Shown here: positions 3,381 through 19,190 of the stretch, one piece after another
Layout: each line of letters opens with the position of its first letter
How positions within the stretch are numbered: position 1 is the first letter of the stretch
Assembly (NCBI GenBank): GCA_024643555.1
Contig: JAHEMQ010000115.1
Span: 1 to 49,240, forward strand
DNA: 49,240 nt
Origin: Crocinitomicaceae bacterium
GTDB lineage: Bacteria; Bacteroidota; Bacteroidia; Flavobacteriales_D; Crocinitomicaceae
Direction of reading: 5' to 3'
Program-made: the position numbers and the translations under genes
Notes under the pieces: generated by a model
Databases searched by the model: none
What the model saw: the letters and a program-made list of their open reading frames with translations, nothing else
Told to the model about the DNA's origin: nothing

Positions 3381-5096
3381 ATGAAGGCTCCATTTAAAAC
3401 GTCTTGGTTTGTTTTAGTATTGATTTCATTAGGGCTCGTTTTATTCCTTTATTTCAATTTTTGGAGTTCAAAGAAGACACCTCTCGCTAAAGGCGATAAA
3501 GTATATGGAGGGGTTTTTTCCTTTGCTTTGCCGGAACCTTTATCTAGTGTTTTTCCACTTGAAACAAACTCACTTTCTGATTTACGCGTCATTAGTCAGG
3601 TTTTTGACCCCCTCGCAAAACAATGCGATTCCAAGGGAACGATTCGCAACTATTTAGCAGATCAAATAGAAATTAAAAACCAAGGTAAAACCGTTTTCAT
3701 TCGAATTAAAAAAGGAGTTCTCTTTCATGACGACGAATGCTTTACCGGTGCTTCAAGAGAATTAACTGCAGAGGATGTTGCTTTTACCTTAAGCTTTGCT
3801 TGTTCTAAAAGTTCGCTAAATCAGTCTTCTGCTTTATTACTAGGGAAAATAGAGGGTTCGGATACATTCTACAAAAACGGAAAAAATCCGCTGCATCACA
3901 CTGTTTCAGGCATTAAAATTCTAGGTGCGCATTCACTTGAAATAAAATTAACCAAGCCATATAACCACATTATACAACTTCTATCGCATCCTAGTTTAGG
4001 AATTTTATCCAAAAAAGCAAGTGTTTTTTATGGCCGAAGAATTGCAAACCATCCTGTCGGAACAGGGCCCTTTTATCTCCATTCGTCAAATAATCATGAA
4101 GTTATATTGATGAGAAACTCAGATTATTGGGCACGCGATGAACATGGAAATCAATTGCCTTTTTTAGAGGAAATCCACATAAACACAAACACGAATCTTT
4201 CTGACGTATTTACCTTGTTTTCCCAACAAAAAATAGACTTATTGTTTGATTTACCTGCGAATCAACTCGAACTTGCGTTTGGAACTTTGTCCGAAGCTAA
4301 AAAAGGAAAAAATCTCTTGCACCGAGTTCACATTCAAAAGGCTTCTAAAATTAACTATGTCGACTGGAATGTAAGTCGACCACCTTTTAACAATTTACTC
4401 GTTCGACAAGCATTTGAATTGGCAATTGACAAAAATCGGATTTGTAATGAAGTGTTACGAGGGGATGGACAAGCAATAAATCATGGATTTATTCCAACAA
4501 GTTCATTTTATTCTAACCCTCATATTCCAAAGGTCGAAGTAAACATTCCGGCTGCTAAAACCTTATTCAAAAAAGCGGGTTATAGCCATCCTGAAGATTT
4601 TCCAAAAACACTGTTTTACGTCAATGCACAAGCTGGTAGCAATGCGGATTTGTGGTGTCGCGATTTTTGTAAACAACTGAGAAACAACCTAGGAATTAAA
4701 ATATATGTGGTTAACGTAAGTACCCGAGAACGGGATCAAAAAATCAAATCTGGCACTGCGGCGATCTGGAGAGGCGGGTGGGTTGGAGATTATCCTGACG
4801 CGGAATCCTATTTGCGCTTATTTTATCATGGTCCAAAAGACAACGAGGTTAAATTTCAAAATCGCACGTTTGATCAGCTTTATTTACAATCAACACTTAC
4901 TACCAGTGAAACCGAGAAAAAAACACTGCAAAGACTTTGTGAATCCATCGTTTCTAAGGACTGTGCCATTATTCCCGTTTATTCGGAAGATTTCTTTGTA
5001 ATGATAAACCTGCGCGTAAGGGGATTTGAAATGAATTCTTCTGGTATCATCGACTTCGCGACCATTTACATGAAGGAATTAAAGTATAGAGATTAG
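3381..5096 (+). CDS. ABC transporter substrate-binding protein, family 5 (oligopeptide/dipeptide type), membrane-anchored
   Basis: A 571-residue protein resembling OppA/DppA-type binding proteins (SBP_bac_5). One N-terminal hydrophobic helix (about 9-28) has no lipobox cysteine, so it is probably an uncleaved anchor. Family hallmarks include VGTGPFYL followed by NSDYWARDEHGNQLPFLEE in mid-protein and GGWVGDYPDAESYLRLFY near the C-terminus. It lies 38 nt after the secreted protein and may be cotranscribed. No permease or ATPase genes of an Opp system are adjacent, so it is an orphan component; peptide uptake or a signalling role is inferred. Its stop is 2 nt from the stop of the convergent dioxygenase gene. 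Confidence 0.85.
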   Translation: MKAPFKTSWFVLVLISLGLVLFLYFNFWSSKKTPLAKGDKVYGGVFSFALPEPLSSVFPLETNSLSDLRVISQVFDPLAKQCDSKGTIRNYLADQIEIKNQGKTVFIRIKKGVLFHDDECFTGASRELTAEDVAFTLSFACSKSSLNQSSALLLGKIEGSDTFYKNGKNPLHHTVSGIKILGAHSLEIKLTKPYNHIIQLLSHPSLGILSKKASVFYGRRIANHPVGTGPFYLHSSNNHEVILMRNSDYWARDEHGNQLPFLEEIHINTNTNLSDVFTLFSQQKIDLLFDLPANQLELAFGTLSEAKKGKNLLHRVHIQKASKINYVDWNVSRPPFNNLLVRQAFELAIDKNRICNEVLRGDGQAINHGFIPTSSFYSNPHIPKVEVNIPAAKTLFKKAGYSHPEDFPKTLFYVNAQAGSNADLWCRDFCKQLRNNLGIKIYVVNVSTRERDQKIKSGTAAIWRGGWVGDYPDAESYLRLFYHGPKDNEVKFQNRTFDQLYLQSTLTTSETEKKTLQRLCESIVSKDCAIIPVYSEDFFVMINLRVRGFEMNSSGIIDFATIYMKELKYRD

Positions 5097-10916: not shown

Positions 10917-12044
10917 GTGCGGACATTGTTGTTTCTTTTGATCACCCCTATGCTTGCTTTTGCGCAGCAAGGCGATTTTTCCTCCTGTGAAAATGCGTTA
11001 AGTCTTGTTCCGAGTGGAAAATACACCGTTTCTTTTTTAGGAAAAAAAGGCCTTATACCAAGTGAGGGTGTTTTTCAACACGCTAGAAACCCCGGGAAAA
11101 ATCAACTTTGGATGGACTTCACAACTACTCAAAAGGGTGGTCTGACCATTTCATTTTTACATCAAGACCAGTCGATACAATTACTGATCCTGAAGGAAAA
11201 AGAAGTGGATGTCTGTTCCGCATTAAAAGAACAAAACTTACAAGTGATTGTTGAGCGGACGATTGATTCACTGGTTACATTAGAAACAGAACTTGAAGTA
11301 AATGAGAATGAACATTATTACATCGTTCTTTTAGGGGCCGAAAAATCAAAACAATCCATTTCTTGTCAGTTTTCTTTTCTCATTGATGAAGACGAACCAA
11401 AAAAATCATCATCATTAAACCTGGTATATAATGAGTCTCTTCCCATTTATCATCTATTCATACGTGACAAGGCTTCCTTTAGCCCAGTGGAAGCCCGCAT
11501 CGTTTTGCAAGGATCAACTGAAATCAATGGTATTTATAGAGCAAGTGATTTAGAAATGAATCTGTCTAAAAAAGTAAAGGAGGGATTTTTAAGGGTGGAT
11601 GCAGAAGGGTATTTATCGGCTGACTTTGAAAATACGGCTATCCCCATGAATAATCAATTTCACGATACGATTTGGTTGACACCGATTCAAGAAGGGATGT
11701 TAGCAGCATTAGACGACGTATATTTTGCAGCCGGACTTGCCACTATTTTGGAAGAATCTTATCCAAAATTGAAAAGACTTCGGGACTTTTTGATTTTAAA
11801 TCCTTCCGTATCCATTGAAATTCATGGACATGTCAATGAAGACAATGATAAAGACCTTGTTTCCATGAAATTATCTAAAAAACGCGCTCAAAAAGTAGTC
11901 GAATACCTTGTGGCGGGGGGTATAGATCCGAAACGACTTACGGCTATTGGGTTTGGAAATACTAAACCCATATACAAAACACCACAAACGGAGGAAGAAA
12001 AAGAGGCGAATAGACGCGTAGAAATTCTAATTCAAAAGAATTAA
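10917..12044 (+). CDS. OmpA-family C-terminal domain protein (peptidoglycan-associated)
   Basis: A 375-residue exported protein with signal peptide MRTLLFLLITPMLAFAQ from a GTG start at 10917. The N-terminal ~240 residues are not recognised. The last ~110 form an OmpA/MotB domain: VYFAAGLATILEES, IEIHGHVNEDND, LSKKRAQKVVEYLVAGGI, LTAIGFGNTKPI and EEKEANRRVEILI, which normally binds meso-diaminopimelate in peptidoglycan. It lies 15 nt after the DUF4403-like lipoprotein and may tether the outer membrane to the wall with it. Its stop shares the tetranucleotide TTAA with the stop of the convergent rpiB. Confidence 0.85.
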   Translation: MRTLLFLLITPMLAFAQQGDFSSCENALSLVPSGKYTVSFLGKKGLIPSEGVFQHARNPGKNQLWMDFTTTQKGGLTISFLHQDQSIQLLILKEKEVDVCSALKEQNLQVIVERTIDSLVTLETELEVNENEHYYIVLLGAEKSKQSISCQFSFLIDEDEPKKSSSLNLVYNESLPIYHLFIRDKASFSPVEARIVLQGSTEINGIYRASDLEMNLSKKVKEGFLRVDAEGYLSADFENTAIPMNNQFHDTIWLTPIQEGMLAALDDVYFAAGLATILEESYPKLKRLRDFLILNPSVSIEIHGHVNEDNDKDLVSMKLSKKRAQKVVEYLVAGGIDPKRLTAIGFGNTKPIYKTPQTEEEKEANRRVEILIQKN

Positions 12045-12469
12045 CAAGGTATTTTATTCACCCTGTTCTGGTGTCTTCCTCCTTCGAATGAGGTAGACAA
12101 AAACGTTTCAACCATTTCCAAAGCGAGTTCTTCAGAAACAAATCGTGCAGGAATGGCAATAATATTGGCGTCGTTGTGCGTTCGCGCTAACTCTGCAATC
12201 TCAGTTGTCCAACACAATGCACTGCGTATTCCTTGATGCTTGTTTGCGGTCATATTTATTCCATTACCTGATCCACAAAGTAAAATGCCTAACATTCCCG
12301 TGTTTTCTTCCACCATTGCCGCAAGTGGATGAGCATAATCGGCGTAATCAATACTCTCTTCTGAATAACATCCAAAATCTTTTACTTCTAAACCTTTAGC
12401 TGTTAAATGTTTAACAATACTTTCTTTGGTTTTAAATCCCGCGTGGTCACATGCAATTGGAATCATCAT
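12041..12469 (-). CDS. rpiB: Ribose-5-phosphate isomerase B (RpiB/LacAB family)
   Basis: A protein of about 142 residues (MMIPIACDHAGF...) that interconverts ribose-5-phosphate and ribulose-5-phosphate in the pentose phosphate pathway. Typical RpiB features: IACDHAGF near the N-terminus, DYADYAHPLA in the middle, the active-site CGSGNGINMTANK and GIRSALCWTTEIAELARTHNDANIIAIPARFV. The start is 12469 (or the adjacent ATG at 12466), because an earlier in-frame ATG at 12493 falls inside the -7 element. The promoter faces the proposed replication origin. The gene is convergent with the OmpA-domain gene, overlapping by 4 bases. Confidence 0.93.
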   Translation of the reverse strand: MMIPIACDHAGFKTKESIVKHLTAKGLEVKDFGCYSEESIDYADYAHPLAAMVEENTGMLGILLCGSGNGINMTANKHQGIRSALCWTTEIAELARTHNDANIIAIPARFVSEELALEMVETFLSTSFEGGRHQNRVNKIPC

Positions 12470-12490
12470 AACTTTTATACATTTTACATA

Positions 12491-12498
12491 CAAAGGTA
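12491..12498 (-). promoter_or_regulatory. -7 element of rpiB, decides the start
   Basis: The minus strand reads TACCTTTG, 21 nt before the ATG at 12469, and overlaps the alternative upstream ATG. Confidence 0.5.
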
Positions 12499-12522
12499 AT
12501 GACTATTCACAAACAGCTGTAG

Positions 12523-12531
12523 TTATTCACA
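12523..12531 (+). promoter_or_regulatory. DnaA box, perfect
   Basis: TTATTCACA matches TTATNCACA exactly. A one-mismatch copy (CTATTCACA) starts 20 bases before it in the same orientation, about two helical turns away. Confidence 0.65.
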
Positions 12532-12621
12532 ATGATGATTTCAACCTAAGCCAGAAGCCCCTATTTACTGAAATTAAAATCAGTAGTTATTCACTCGTTA
12601 AACTGTAAAATTGTGAATAGC

Positions 12622-12630
12622 TGTGTATAA
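12622..12630 (-). promoter_or_regulatory. DnaA box, perfect, minus orientation
   Basis: The minus strand reads TTATACACA. It lies one base after another minus-strand box (CTATTCACA, 12612-12620), a close tandem arrangement with 10-base spacing. Confidence 0.65.
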
Positions 12631-12907
12631 CCACTTAAAACTTTTCCTTGCAAAATTCAATCGTTTTTCGAATTGCATCTTTTTTTGAATTAATATCAAT
12701 AAGTTAGCTATTGTTATACAGAGTTATTAGCGCTGTTATTCACTTTATTTGACCTTCTTTTTTGTTTTTCTTTTCAACATAGTATTCAATTAAGACCTTG
12801 TTTAAAAGTCTGTATATTATTTACTATCAATTGATTAACAAATCATTACTTGTTGATTAAGTTATTTGTAATGTTTAAAACCTTAAATACAAATAATTCA
12901 GGTTTAC

Positions 12908-12916
12908 TTATACACA
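12908..12916 (+). promoter_or_regulatory. DnaA box, perfect, next to the AT-rich block
   Basis: TTATACACA lies 12 bases before the AT-rich, TAA-periodic stretch proposed as the unwinding region. Confidence 0.65.
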
Positions 12917-12999
12917 AATGAACATCCTTAATAAGAGTAATAAAGATTTTAAATAATTTAAAAAAAGAAATATATTCTATTAAATAAGCTGATACAGAT

Positions 13000-13007
13000 T
13001 AAATTTG
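13000..13007 (+). promoter_or_regulatory. -7 element of the DUF4175-ybeY-mnmG operon, decides the start
   Basis: TAAATTTG lies 32 nt before the ATG at 13040. A GTG at 13007 in the same frame overlaps it and is therefore not the start. Confidence 0.5.
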
Positions 13008-13039
13008 TGCTGTATCAAAATCTTGAATACTTTTATCTC

Positions 13040-16000
13040 ATGGAAAATAGCTTTGACTTACTGATTCTTCAAATCGATTCTTTTATACGAAAGTACTATA
13101 AGAATCAAATGATTCGAGGAATTTTACTGTTTTTTGTGATTTTCTTATTCACGTTTTTGTTGGCAACTAGTTTGGAATATATTGGACGATTTAATTCCAT
13201 CGTAAGAGCTATTTTCTTTTTTGGGTTCATTGCATTAAATGGTTATATCCTGGTGCGGTTTTTTATTATTCCGTTAACGAAACTAAGTTCCTTTGGAAAA
13301 CAAATTAGCAGACTACAAGCGGCAGAAATTATTGGTTCTTTTTTTCCGAGTGTATCTGATCGTTTAAAAAATACCCTTCAACTTCAAAATAGTTTAACAC
13401 ATCAAGAAGGTAATATTGAATTACTCAGAGCAAGTGTTAATCAACGTTCAAATGCATTGAGTGTCATACCATTTAAAAATGCCATTGAAATTGGAGAGAA
13501 TAAAAAATTCTTAAAATACTTAGTTCCATTATTTGTTTGTTTCGTGTTAATTGCTCTTTTTATTCCTTCTGTGATTACACAAGGAACAGAACATGTGGTT
13601 TTTTACAATAAAGAATTTAAGGAAAAGTCACCATTTGATTTTAAATTAAGAAACGCATCTTTATTATTGGAGGAAGGAAGAGATTTTCAAGTCGATTTAG
13701 AACTTATTCCCAATCAACAAGACAAGAAAGAATTACCAAATCAAGTATACATTGTATCTGAACAAGGTAAGTTTTTATTACTTCGAAAAACCAAAAATAC
13801 ATTTATTGGGACGATTAAAAAACCCAGAAAAAAAACCTCATTTTATTTTACAACGAATGAATTCGATAGTGAACGATTTCATTTAAACGTGATTGGAAAA
13901 TCCCTAATAGGAAAAATACAAGCTGTTTGTACGTATCCATCATACTTAGGGAAAACAAATGAAACAATTGATAACGTGGGTGATTTAACCTTACCGGAAG
14001 GAACGATTGTGGAATACCGAATTCGAACAAAAAACACAAAAAAAACCGAGGTTTTCTGGAATCAATCCAAAACGAGTTTTCTAGAAGAGTCGTTTAAATT
14101 TAAACAACTATGTAAAGAAGATAAGGTTCTTAAGTTTATACTAGAAAATAAATTTCATAAACAAAAGGATACAGTTCATTACCGAGTTTCGGTAATAAAG
14201 GATGCTTTTCCTTCGATCGAAGTATCCGAACAAACAGATTCTGTCTCGGCTGGTCTAAAGTATTTTAATGGTATTGTTTCGGATGATTATGGATTGAAAA
14301 ATCTACAATTTATCTATAAAATAACACATGAAAATGGACAAAATAAGGAAGTAAGAATGCCGGTTCAACAAGTCATGGGGTCGCAAATGAATTTCCGTTT
14401 TGCAGTAGATTTTAATCGTGAAGAAGTAAAGCTCAATGATAAAATCTCCTATTACTTCGTAGTGTATGATAATGATGGTGTTAACGGAAGTAAAGCAAGT
14501 AAGAGTCAATTATTTACATATGAATTACCGTCATTGGCAGAATTGAATGATACTAGAAATAAAGAACAAGAGCAAACAAAAGAAAATATTGATCAATTAT
14601 TAGCGAAAACGAAGGAATTTCAAAAGAATATTTCCGCGTTAAAAAAAGAAGCGTTGAATGCTAAATCATCCGATTGGAATAAATTGAATAAAGTTCAACA
14701 GTTAAAAGAAGAACAAGCTACCCTCATGGAGTCTCTCCAAAAAGTACAAAATGAAATGGATCGGAGTATGGAGGAAAAAAATCAACTTTCTCCGGTGGAC
14801 AAAGAACTTTTGGAAAAACAGGAAATGATTGAAAAGTTGTTGGAAGAATTAATGGATGACGAATTAAAAAAATTATTGGAGGACCTAGAGAAATTGCTAC
14901 AACAGAATGATAAAGAACAAGTGAAGGAAAAAATGGAGGAATTGAATCAGTCCAGTGAGGATATGAAAAAACAATTGGACCGTAGCCTTGAAATGTTAAA
15001 GAAAATGCAGCTAAACGAACGTATTGATGATGTAGAGAAGGAATTAAAAGATTTAGCAAAAGAACAAGATAAATTAAGAGAAGAAACAAAGGAAAATACT
15101 TCAAAAGAGGATTTATTGAAGAAGCAGGAAGAATTAAATAAAAAATTTGAGGAATTAAAGAAGGATTTAGAGAATTTAGACAAATTGAATAAAGAGTTGG
15201 AGAAACCAATGGATTTAGGAAATCTAGAAGAATTAAAAAAAGAAGTAATTGAGGATTTGAAGGAAGCGAAAGAAGGAATTGAAGAAGGGAAAGAGAAGAA
15301 AGCAGGGGAAAGTCAGAAATCTGCAGCTGAAGGAATGAATTCTATGGCCAATCAATTGAATGCGAAACAACAGCAAGCGAACAAAAAAGAACAAGAAGAG
15401 GATATGAAATCTCTTCGTAATATTTTAGAAAGTTTGATGACCCTTAGTTTTGACCAGGAAGCGTTGATGAATAAGTTTTCAAAAGTGACAACACAAGATC
15501 CTATGTATCGAAGATTGGGAAGGCGTCAACAACGTATCATAGATGAAACTAAAATAATTAAAGATAGTTTGCTTGCATTAGCGAAGCGTCAACCAAAAAT
15601 TGCGTCATTCATCGATAAAGAATTGAATGCCATAGAGAGCAATCAGCGAATGTCTGTAGAAGACATTGATGATCATCGAAAAAAAGATCTCAATAAACAC
15701 CAACAACTTGTCATGACTTCCTACAATAATTTAGCCTTATTACTTAACGAGGCATTGCAAAGCATGCAAAGTCAGATGCAATCCGAAATGGCAGGAAGTG
15801 GAAGCTGTAATAATCCCGGAAAAGGAAGACCAAAACCTGGACAATCTATGTCAACAGGGGACATGAAGGAAATGTTAAAAAAACAACTTGAACAAATGCA
15901 AAAAGGACCAAATCCAGGAGGTAGTAAACCTGGTGATAAACCAGGCGATAAACCTGGGGGAAAGCCTGGGTCTTCTGGTCAGAGCATGTTAGGTTTAGGT

Positions 16001-16417
16001 AATAAGGAAATTGCGAAAATGGCGGCAGATCAAACAGCCATTCGTCAACGTTTGGAACAACTCAGAAATGAGATGAATAAGGACGGGAAAGGATTAGGAA
16101 ATCAATTAAATCCATTAATTAAAGAATTGGAAGAACAAGAGAAAAATATCATCAATCAAAACTTTAATAATGAAATGGTGAATCGACAAAAAGAGATTTT
16201 AACTCGATTGTTGGAAAGTGAAAAAGCGTTGATGGAAAGAGGTTACGAAGAAAAAAGGGAATCTAAATCGGGAAAAGATGAAGATTATGGTAACAAAATC
16301 CGTTTTGATGAGTATAACAAATCGAAATTAAAGGAATTGGAATTATTGAAATCTGCTGACCCTTCATTGCGTCAGTATTACAAAGAGAAAGCAAATCAAT
16401 ATTTCAATCTGAACTAA
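13040..16417 (+). CDS. DUF4175 family membrane-anchored coiled-coil protein
   Basis: A 1125-residue protein of unknown function typical of Bacteroidota. Two N-terminal transmembrane helices (about 25-65 as a pair) and another at about 140-165 anchor it. Beta-rich Ig-like modules follow (about 180-480). Next is a very long Lys/Glu/Leu heptad region (about 485-790) expected to form extended coiled coils. A Met/Gln/Lys helical region and a Gly-Pro-Lys linker (repeats of KPGDKPGDKPGGKPG near residues 958-975) precede another helical C-terminus. The ATG at 13040 is chosen because the earlier GTG lies in the promoter. It heads a tight operon with an RsbW-like kinase, ybeY and mnmG and directly borders the proposed origin. 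The family name is from recognition of the pattern; no activity is known. Confidence 0.8.
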   Translation: MENSFDLLILQIDSFIRKYYKNQMIRGILLFFVIFLFTFLLATSLEYIGRFNSIVRAIFFFGFIALNGYILVRFFIIPLTKLSSFGKQISRLQAAEIIGSFFPSVSDRLKNTLQLQNSLTHQEGNIELLRASVNQRSNALSVIPFKNAIEIGENKKFLKYLVPLFVCFVLIALFIPSVITQGTEHVVFYNKEFKEKSPFDFKLRNASLLLEEGRDFQVDLELIPNQQDKKELPNQVYIVSEQGKFLLLRKTKNTFIGTIKKPRKKTSFYFTTNEFDSERFHLNVIGKSLIGKIQAVCTYPSYLGKTNETIDNVGDLTLPEGTIVEYRIRTKNTKKTEVFWNQSKTSFLEESFKFKQLCKEDKVLKFILENKFHKQKDTVHYRVSVIKDAFPSIEVSEQTDSVSAGLKYFNGIVSDDYGLKNLQFIYKITHENGQNKEVRMPVQQVMGSQMNFRFAVDFNREEVKLNDKISYYFVVYDNDGVNGSKASKSQLFTYELPSLAELNDTRNKEQEQTKENIDQLLAKTKEFQKNISALKKEALNAKSSDWNKLNKVQQLKEEQATLMESLQKVQNEMDRSMEEKNQLSPVDKELLEKQEMIEKLLEELMDDELKKLLEDLEKLLQQNDKEQVKEKMEELNQSSEDMKKQLDRSLEMLKKMQLNERIDDVEKELKDLAKEQDKLREETKENTSKEDLLKKQEELNKKFEELKKDLENLDKLNKELEKPMDLGNLEELKKEVIEDLKEAKEGIEEGKEKKAGESQKSAAEGMNSMANQLNAKQQQANKKEQEEDMKSLRNILESLMTLSFDQEALMNKFSKVTTQDPMYRRLGRRQQRIIDETKIIKDSLLALAKRQPKIASFIDKELNAIESNQRMSVEDIDDHRKKDLNKHQQLVMTSYNNLALLLNEALQSMQSQMQSEMAGSGSCNNPGKGRPKPGQSMSTGDMKEMLKKQLEQMQKGPNPGGSKPGDKPGDKPGGKPGSSGQSMLGLGNKEIAKMAADQTAIRQRLEQLRNEMNKDGKGLGNQLNPLIKELEEQEKNIINQNFNNEMVNRQKEILTRLLESEKALMERGYEEKRESKSGKDEDYGNKIRFDEYNKSKLKELELLKSADPSLRQYYKEKANQYFNLN

Positions 16418-16441: not shown

Positions 16442-16855
16442 ATGAAAGAAGGATTTAATATTATTGAAAAAATTACGTTAACTACTGATTATCAGTCTCT
16501 TGTGGATGTTGAGAATTTAGTGGAACGGGTTTGTCAATCGTTGGGAGTACAGGATGACGCCTACGGTAATGTTTTAATTTCTGTAACAGAGGCAGTGAAT
16601 AACGCTATTTGTCATGGGAACAAAAATGATGCAAACCTAACAATAGAAGTAGGTGTTGGTGATCATACAGATGCCTTTTGTTTTCGTATATGTGACCAAG
16701 GTGATGGTTTTGATTATTCTAATCTACCAGACCCGACCGCTCCGGAAAATATTTTAAAGGAAAACGGACGAGGTATTTTCTTAATGAAAAACTTGGCGGA
16801 TGAAATAGCTTTCAATGATAAAGGGAATGAGGTCACTATTTATTTTAGTAAATGA
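16442..16855 (+). CDS. RsbW-like HATPase (serine kinase / anti-sigma-factor type)
   Basis: A 137-residue GHKL-fold ATP-binding protein. The N box is SVTEAVNNAICHGNK (about 48-62), the G1 box is CDQGDGFD (about 85-92), and the G2 region is ENGRGIFLMKNLADEI (about 107-122). This is the arrangement of SpoIIAB/RsbW anti-sigma kinases, with no sensor domain. No anti-anti-sigma or sigma gene is adjacent, so its partner is unknown. Its ATG lies 24 nt after the DUF4175 stop, and its stop overlaps the ybeY start (ATGA). The position between DUF4175 and ybeY looks conserved in Flavobacteria (from memory). Confidence 0.85.
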   Translation: MKEGFNIIEKITLTTDYQSLVDVENLVERVCQSLGVQDDAYGNVLISVTEAVNNAICHGNKNDANLTIEVGVGDHTDAFCFRICDQGDGFDYSNLPDPTAPENILKENGRGIFLMKNLADEIAFNDKGNEVTIYFSK

Positions 16856-17289
16856 TTTCTGTTCAATTTATTGAGGTTAAAAAACCAATATTTCTAAAAT
16901 CAAACGAATTGAAGTCTTTCCTGAAAAGACTTATATTCAAGGAAGGAAAAACATTGGGTGATCTATCGGTTGTTTTTTGCACGGATGAATACCTTTTAAA
17001 GGTGAATCAAGATTACTTGCAGCATGATTATTATACAGACATTATCACCTTTGATTATTGTGAGGGAACAAAAATTAGTGGAGATTTGTTGATTTCTTTG
17101 GACCGTGTAATGGAGAATTGCGTGTTAGAGAAAACTTCTTTTGAAAGCGAATGTTTCCGCGTGGTTTTTCATGGTGTTTTGCATTTGTGTGGATTTAAGG
17201 ATAAGACAAAACGAGACGTTTTGATCATGCGCGGCAAAGAAAGTGAATATTTAGATTTGTTTGTTTCACGTGAAACAAATAAAAATTAG
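16852..17289 (+). CDS. ybeY: Endoribonuclease YbeY (rRNA maturation / 70S quality control)
   Basis: A 145-residue single-domain metalloribonuclease (UPF0054) involved in 16S rRNA 3'-end processing and ribosome quality control. Evidence: [41 protein letters not shown] and the metal site [11 protein letters not shown]. In the usual HGxLHLxGYDH motif three histidines bind zinc; here the third is Asp. I believe Asp is common in Bacteroidota. The start overlaps the previous stop as ATGA. The last codons (FVSRETN) are written in a perfect parS site at 17262-17277, so the C-terminal tail is shaped by a DNA element. Confidence 0.92.
17262..17277. promoter_or_regulatory. parS site 1 (ParB binding), inside the ybeY 3' end
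   Basis: TGTTTCACGTGAAACA is the exact 16-bp palindrome known as parS for chromosomal ParB/Spo0J. It lies in the ybeY coding sequence, 12 bases before the stop. Confidence 0.93.
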
Positions 17290-17296
17290 GAACAAA

Positions 17297-17312
17297 TGTT
17301 TCACGTGAAACA
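17297..17312. promoter_or_regulatory. parS site 2 (ParB binding), abutting the mnmG start
   Basis: A second exact copy of TGTTTCACGTGAAACA. It ends at the base before the mnmG ATG and is 35 bases centre to centre from site 1. ParB bound here would cover the translation-initiation region of mnmG. Confidence 0.93.
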
Positions 17313-19190
17313 ATGAATATGTTAGAAAATTACGATGTGATTGTAGTGGGCGCTGGACACGCTGGTTGTGAAGCCGCCAATGCAGCCGCTAAAATGGGTA
17401 GTAAGGTTTTATTGCTTACTATGAACATGAACACCATCGCTCAAATGAGTTGCAATCCGGCTATGGGTGGTGTTGCGAAAGGACAAATCGTAAGAGAAAT
17501 AGATGCGCTTGGTGGAGGCTCAGGAATTGTGAGTGATAAGAGCGCTATTCAGTTTCGTATGTTGAATATGTCAAAAGGACCAGCTATGTGGTCGCCAAGA
17601 ACACAGAATGACCGCATGATGTTTTCTTGGGAGTGGCGCTTGTTATTGGAAAAAAACACCAACATCGACTTTTGGCAAGACATGTGTACAGGAATTATTG
17701 TTAAAGAAAATAAAGCGCTGGGCGTACACACCTCAATGGGTGTTGATATTTATGCCAAGACCGTTGTATTAACTAATGGAACTTTTTTAAATGGTTTGAT
17801 TCACCTAGGAGAAAAACAGTTTGGTGGAGGAAGAGCCGCGGAAAAGGCGTCCACTGGTATAACGGAATGTTTGATCGCTTTGGGTTTTGAAGCGGGCAGA
17901 ATGAAGACAGGGACCCCGCCGAGGGTTGATGGCCGCTCCTTGGATTATTCAAAAATGGAATTACAACCAGGAGACGTAAACCCATCCAAATTTAGTTATA
18001 CGGATACAAAAGCCCTAGACAAACAAATACCTTGTTATATTACGTATACAAATGAACAAACGCATGAGTTATTGCGTACGGGTTTTGACCGCTCCCCAAT
18101 GTTTAATGGAGCCATCAAAAGTATGGGCCCAAGGTATTGTCCAAGTATTGAGGACAAAATAAACCGTTTTGCGGATCGCGATCGACATCAAATATTTGTT
18201 GAGCCGGAAGGTTGGGAAACAGTGGAGATTTATGTGAATGGATTTAGTACTTCTCTGCCGGAGGATGTGCAATTAGCCGCACTTAAGACAATACCAGGAT
18301 TTGAAAAGGTTAAAATGTTTCGCCCTGGTTATGCCATAGAATATGACTATTTCCCTCCTACTCAATTAAAACACACACTGGAAACAAAGCGAATAGAAGG
18401 TTTATATTTTGCAGGACAAATTAATGGAACAACGGGTTATGAAGAAGCCGCCTGTCAAGGATTAATGGCGGGAATTAATGCACATTTGAAAACCAAAGAA
18501 AAAGAGCCATTTATACTATCTAGAAGTGATGCTTATATCGGAGTGTTGATCGATGATTTGATTACAAAAGGAACGAATGAGCCTTATCGAATGTTTACGA
18601 GTCGTGCAGAGTTTAGAATCTTATTGAGGCAGGATAATGCTGATGAACGTTTAACACCGCTAGGGTATGAAATTGGCTTAGCTGAGCAAGAGCGTTTTGA
18701 GAAAGTGCAACAAAAAATAACCCAAACCAATTGGTTAAAAAAAGAATTGCGAACCATTGGGATTACTCCAGAACAGGCCAATCCACTGCTGGAAGAAAAA
18801 GACTCAACCCCGATAAATCAGCAGGTGAAAATCACAAGTCTTTTAACAAGGCCTCACATTAATCTTCATGATTTATTATTGGTTTCAAATGAAGCCAAAA
18901 TAGCTGCAACTAAAGCCGCAGAAATTGATTCCGATGTATTGGTTCAAACCGAGGTTCAATTGAAATATGAAGGGTACATTGAACGGGAACAGGAACAAGC
19001 ACAAAAACTATCCCGTTTAGAAGATTTGATAATACCAGAACATGTAGATTATACTCAAATAAAAAGCATCTCGCTGGAAGCAAAAGAAAAATTACGGAAG
19101 ATTCAACCACGAACGATTGGACAGGCCTCTCGTGTCTCTGGGGTCTCTCCTAGTGATATTTCTGTGCTTTTGATCCACTTGGGTCGTTAA
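17313..19190 (+). CDS. mnmG: tRNA uridine-5-carboxymethylaminomethyl modification enzyme MnmG (GidA)
   Basis: A 625-residue FAD protein that with MnmE modifies the wobble uridine (U34) of several tRNAs. The FAD-binding Rossmann motif is [12 protein letters not shown] (about 11-22). GidA signatures are [17 protein letters not shown] (about 52-68), [14 protein letters not shown] (about 198-211) and [20 protein letters not shown] (about 364-383). The C-terminal helical MnmE-binding domain is complete. Length is normal (about 620-630). Start 17313 is adjacent to the second parS; an ATG at 17319 is an alternative. gidA is a classic neighbour of oriC in many bacteria, in keeping with the parS pair and the DnaA-box cluster nearby. 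It is the last gene of the DUF4175 operon. Confidence 0.96.

Follow-up and report, generated by a model that had tools for sequence, protein, structure and literature searches.

Two exact copies of the 16-bp palindrome TGTTTCACGTGAAACA are located at the ybeY/mnmG junction of this Crocinitomicaceae genome. They very probably constitute a tandem parS and, as such, the centromere of a chromosomal ParABS system. This reading is favoured because the sites are exact and rare, the genome encodes ParA and ParB with the expected motifs, the sites are conserved as DNA, and a probable origin lies nearby. The window, by which the whole analysed stretch of 49,240 nucleotides is meant, contains the pair, both neighbouring genes and the candidate origin.

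The two palindromes at the ybeY/mnmG junction

The first copy occupies positions 17262..17277 and the second 17297..17312, neither with an assigned strand. Both are exact matches, both agree with the 16-bp parS consensus, and they are spaced 35 bp start to start, hence 35 bases centre to centre, as the original prediction had it. Rather than lying entirely between the genes, the pair spans the junction. The first copy is found in the last codons of ybeY, where it is translated as part of ..FVSRET... This gene for an rRNA maturation RNase (16852..17289, + strand; NCBIfam TIGR00043, 9.1e-25, above cut-off) has its stop codon at 17287-17289, and its 3' end contains the first copy. The final base of the second copy directly precedes the ATG, at 17313, of mnmG (gidA), which encodes a tRNA-modification enzyme (17313..19190, + strand; NCBIfam TIGR00136, 7.3e-258).

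Exact copies of TGTTTCACGTGAAACA are rare. The whole assembly (2,191,249 bases in 118 contigs) contains two exact matches, none with one mismatch and one with two mismatches; since the assembly is 86% complete, 14% of the genome may be missing, and an extra copy there is possible. It had been claimed that the window holds no further exact copies, and the next-best matches indeed have three mismatches, at 3551 and 41179. At up to three mismatches, the window has four matches against 0.58 expected, and none of 100 shuffles reaches four. A longer parS array was sought, and no third site at two or fewer mismatches was found beside the pair. From base composition, the expectation is 8e-4 exact copies per 2.19 Mb; for a second copy at so short a distance it is about 2e-11, in keeping with the earlier statement that two copies by chance are essentially impossible. 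The genome-wide search also returned the few and clustered copies that had been foreseen; the even scatter around the chromosome that would have spoken against parS is absent.

Evidence for conservation can be found in other members of the genus, sampled as 37 genomes including the present one, with a readable junction in 33. A parS site at one mismatch or fewer is present in 34 of the 37, and the three genomes without it (G019, G031 and G032) are also without an assembled mnmG. G012 was left unclassified, as its site lies 73 bp from a contig end. In every readable genome (33 of 33) parS is found at the ybeY/mnmG junction, with its first base anywhere from 36 bases ahead of the end of ybeY to 3 bases beyond it. 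In 26 of these genomes, translation of the first copy gives VSRET or something close to it; in 4 it gives LFHVKH/Q, and in 3 the copy lies past the stop codon. The reading of ybeY changes while the letters of the 16-mer stay, which points to selection on the DNA and not on the peptide.

The second copy is more variable. A second parS lies within 60 bp in 27 of the 33 readable genomes, at spacings of 24-50 bp, with 35 bp in 10 of the 27. Four genomes (G001, G004, G007 and G025) have a single site, and two more (G014 and G030) have one site on each side of mnmG. Because single-site members exist, the pair is not required in the genus, and the second copy is not essential there; most likely it adds redundancy or loading capacity. 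The suggestion that so close a pair should be an especially strong ParB nucleation site is not supported by these six genomes, nor by Pseudomonas aeruginosa, where, according to PMC4368675, any one of four oriC-proximal parS sites suffices.

The partition proteins and the probable origin

A single ParB is encoded on contig C94 (locus L003, G000:C94), which is not the contig of parS (TIGR00180, 4.8e-55). The gene order on this contig is parA-parB-DUF5683-dapB-like, where the open reading frame after the DUF5683 gene is presumed to be dapB-like from a reading of its sequence. The ParA-like open reading frame preceding parB has KGGVGKT, which we take to be a deviant Walker motif. Compared with solved structures, the ParB matches ParB, Spo0J and Noc chains (best 3e-51), with a Caulobacter chain among the matches, and it carries the GERRFR motif. 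It has equivalents of Q162, K171, S172, R173, N178, G201 and R204, which are named as parS contacts in passages of PMC7383237, where R173 and G201 are described as invariant in ParB; the numbering is that of the same passages, and the residues were placed by counting from the KSR motif. Position 170, also a parS-contact residue, is A instead of G; H is found at 179 and K at 184. The genome therefore encodes a protein of the ParB/Spo0J family with the CTPase fold and the parS-reading residues, together with a ParA partner. With both genes present, and with the match to the consensus, the identification of the palindrome as the chromosomal ParB-binding site is well supported, and the absence of parB that would have counted against it does not hold. 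In a search of the 37 genus assemblies, parB was not found in 6, one of which is 94% complete.

A candidate oriC is located in the window at 12494..13006 (no strand assigned), in an AT-rich gap between two genes. An rpiB-like gene (12041..12493, - strand; Pfam PF02502, 1e-57) borders it on one side, and on the other a large DUF4175 gene (13007..16417, + strand; Pfam PF13779, 6.2e-9, above cut-off) lies between the gap and the parS neighbourhood. From 12503 to 12908 the gap contains eight 9-mers with at most one mismatch to TTATNCACA, which we take to be the DnaA-box consensus; three of them are exact. The densest 500 bp begins slightly inside rpiB and has 10 box-like words, and no other part of the window has more than 4. 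The cluster is about 4.4-4.8 kb from parS. Having a DnaA-box cluster in an AT-rich stretch, the gap is probably oriC.

The position of the cluster is kept in the genus. In 20 of 22 genus genomes scanned, the densest DnaA-box stretch, lying 4.2-4.8 kb upstream, coincides at least in part with this gap; it is the strict maximum in 17 of them and tied in the other 3. One exception is G005, the other G025, whose piece stops short of the gap. When 8-mers were counted in 21 genus gaps with no motif given, TTATACAC came out on top (21 occurrences against 1.1 expected, in 16 of the 21) and TTATTCAC was also enriched (11 against 0.8, in 7 of the 21), counts that are inflated by the common descent of the gaps. 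Strong enrichment in the same gaps is also seen for unrelated words such as AATGAACA and ATAAACAA; possibly they are binding sites of another initiator factor, or they may reflect descent. In G054, a member of another family, the densest cluster near parS is also upstream of rpiB, with 5 words. The corresponding gap of G038 (G038:C1:1-865, L168) is almost without DnaA-box-like words, though the GC skew turns nearby.

For the GC skew, 20-kb stretches were sampled, and in relatives, the present assembly being divided into 118 contigs. The best turn in G054 is at 3.65 Mb, with parS at 3.639 Mb, and 60 of 60 resamplings fall within 200 kb. In G038 it is at 20 kb, with parS at 15.5 and 17.4 kb, but only 45 of 60 resamplings lie within 200 kb. 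The turn is thus no more than about 11 kb from parS in these two single-contig relatives. A congener, G017, has a step at 0.94-1.04 Mb with parS at 1.119 Mb, a weak agreement at 80-180 kb, and none of 500 shuffles is as good; 324 of 500 resamplings place the step within 200 kb of parS, against 87 of 500 within 200 kb of dnaA. The dnaA gene itself was rejected as an origin marker in G038 and G017, where its distances from parS are 0.45 Mb and 0.57 Mb, respectively. Passages of PMC10197239 on gut bacteria, including Bacteroidetes, likewise state that the origin need not adjoin dnaA. Together, the DnaA-box cluster in the window and the skew turns in relatives support an origin-proximal parS pair, as the original prediction proposed.

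parS beside mnmG and far from parAB

The location beside mnmG extends beyond the genus. At the level of the order, mnmG is flanked by two sites, some 1.9 kb from each other, in 11 of 18 genomes. Across 20 order-level loci, the tested site is within 100 bp of mnmG in 15 and within 852 bp in 3 more, and the other 2 pieces contain no mnmG. A count of 18 of 18 order-level genomes with a site at one mismatch or fewer was set aside; because a reversed control matches 8 of 18, the order-level evidence is restricted to the position beside mnmG. In a draw of 148 genomes from the phylum, TGTTNCACGTGNAACA is exact in 111 and the reversed control in 2, and 24 of the 27 new loci fetched are within 200 bp of mnmG.

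Pairs of closely spaced parS sites are common, since at least 118 stretches from named genomes of many phyla contain one. Among the matches listed, 2 of the 23 close-pair stretches assigned to Bacteroidota by record title belong to the genus of the present genome. The spacing of 137 close pairs among these matches gives a vector strength of 0.17-0.25 for periods of 9.5-11.5 bp (range scanned, 21-51 bp), values from which nothing is concluded about helical phasing. Among the close pairs listed (loci L033-L150), few have spacings of 28-34 bp, and more have 25-27 and 35-51 bp.

In the single-contig Bacteroidota examined, parB is far from parS. The gene was searched in 45 genomes, and 10 single-contig Bacteroidota were used for the distance. 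In all 10, parB is found at 27-81% of the half-chromosome from parS (0.33-1.67 Mb). The individual shares are 81% in G054, 59% in G152, 57% in G175, 56% in G038, 51% in G114, 43% in G191, 37% in G109, 36% in G163, 32% in G120 and 27% in G132, taking the best parB, placing the origin at parS and using rounded genome sizes except for G038 and G054. In G191, another ParB-family match, weaker than the first, lies at about 15%. Location of parAB within the ori domain is usual for such systems without being essential; here parAB and parS are on different contigs. Among the matches listed, ParA or ParB is encoded in the same close-pair piece in 1 of 23 Bacteroidota (Alistipes, L044), against 56 of 95 others. 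In this Alistipes locus, parA, parB, parS and mnmG are all within about 5 kb, perhaps an older arrangement. Because passages of a review (PMC7022226) give the location of par operons and parS in the ori domain as a conserved feature, Bacteroidota look like an exception. A partial literature search, made without the main survey (Livny et al. 2007), found no paper on the separation of parS and parAB in Bacteroidota, on parS at mnmG in Flavobacteriales, or on an rpiB-side origin in Flavobacteriales.

Other readings of the pair, and its likely role

The location beside mnmG raises the question of whether the pair doubles as a regulator, with ParB beside the start codon repressing or timing mnmG in addition to its part in segregation. 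The second copy abuts the mnmG start codon, mnmG neighbours parS in most of the phylum-level loci (24 of 27), and passages of PMC7022226 report that P. aeruginosa ParB at the intergenic sites parS3 and parS4 represses downstream genes. In the order, however, the site frequently follows mnmG or flanks it on both sides, and the same passages report that loss of ParB in Bacillus subtilis and Streptococcus pneumoniae left parS-adjacent genes unchanged. A regulatory role is therefore unlikely.

Alternatively, the two copies could be an RNA element that, by base pairing within the ybeY-mnmG transcript, conceals the mnmG start. Folding of the transcript does give a long stem, at -25.4 kcal/mol with a z of -3.7, and none of 200 shuffles is as stable. 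This fold has no power to discriminate, because any two copies of one palindrome would be expected to fold in the same way. Moreover, the genus includes four single-copy genomes and two with copies flanking mnmG, and the spacing varies from 24 to 50 bp. A stem needs no particular 16-mer, yet TGTTTCACGTGAAACA is the ParB site in other phyla too, and an RNA element is accordingly very improbable. Finally, the first copy could encode a conserved C-terminal peptide of YbeY, the second having arisen by chance, which would account for the VSRET-like reading in 26 of 33 genomes. This is contradicted by the frame changes already described (LFHVKH/Q in 4 genomes, after the stop codon in 3), and with a second copy that is non-coding for ybeY and a chance estimate of about 2e-11, it can be dismissed almost entirely.

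As a tandem parS, the pair would work in the way that is known from other ParABS systems. By analogy with these, ParB dimers would bind the 16-mers, load at the pair as CTP-dependent clamps, and spread or slide along the flanking DNA on the oriC side. ParA would then move the ParB-DNA complex, so that the freshly copied origin region would be separated first.

Similar sites can be found in several known systems. With parS of the B. subtilis, Caulobacter and Pseudomonas type (consensus TGTTNCACGTGNAACA as used here), the pair shares the 16-bp palindrome, the origin-proximal cluster, the cognate ParA and ParB, and the rarity in the genome, but here parAB is not beside parS. The parS clusters of Bacteroides caecimuris and Muribaculum intestinale are also near a GC-skew inversion, with an origin that is not always beside dnaA (PMC10197239); the passages concerned name neither the gene neighbour of parS nor the distance to parAB for gut Bacteroidetes. 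In P. aeruginosa, several sites (parS1-4) are likewise clustered near oriC, according to PMC4368675 and passages of PMC7022226; there, redundancy has been demonstrated among four sites, whereas here there are two within 51 bp. Noc of Firmicutes, a ParB paralogue, reads a related palindrome, NBS, as described in passages of PMC7383237. Unlike Noc, the ParB of this genome carries the R173 and G201 equivalents rather than Q and R, and the palindrome here is parS.

The TGTTTCACGTGAAACA pair is thus mostly ordinary, almost certainly a standard textbook centromere, here in an unstudied Flavobacteriales genome. A more specific proposal for Bacteroidota is that centromere and partition genes have become separated, with parS remaining at mnmG, beside an oriC upstream of rpiB and distant from parAB and dnaA, and that the pair, retained in the ybeY-mnmG transcription unit and overlapping both genes, may couple ParB loading to mnmG expression; as a whole, this carries only an outside chance of being right. 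Since dnaA does not mark the origin in this group, the ybeY/mnmG junction is useful as a sequence landmark for it. The distance between parS and parAB, in turn, provides a clean natural test of whether ParABS depends on an origin-proximal operon.
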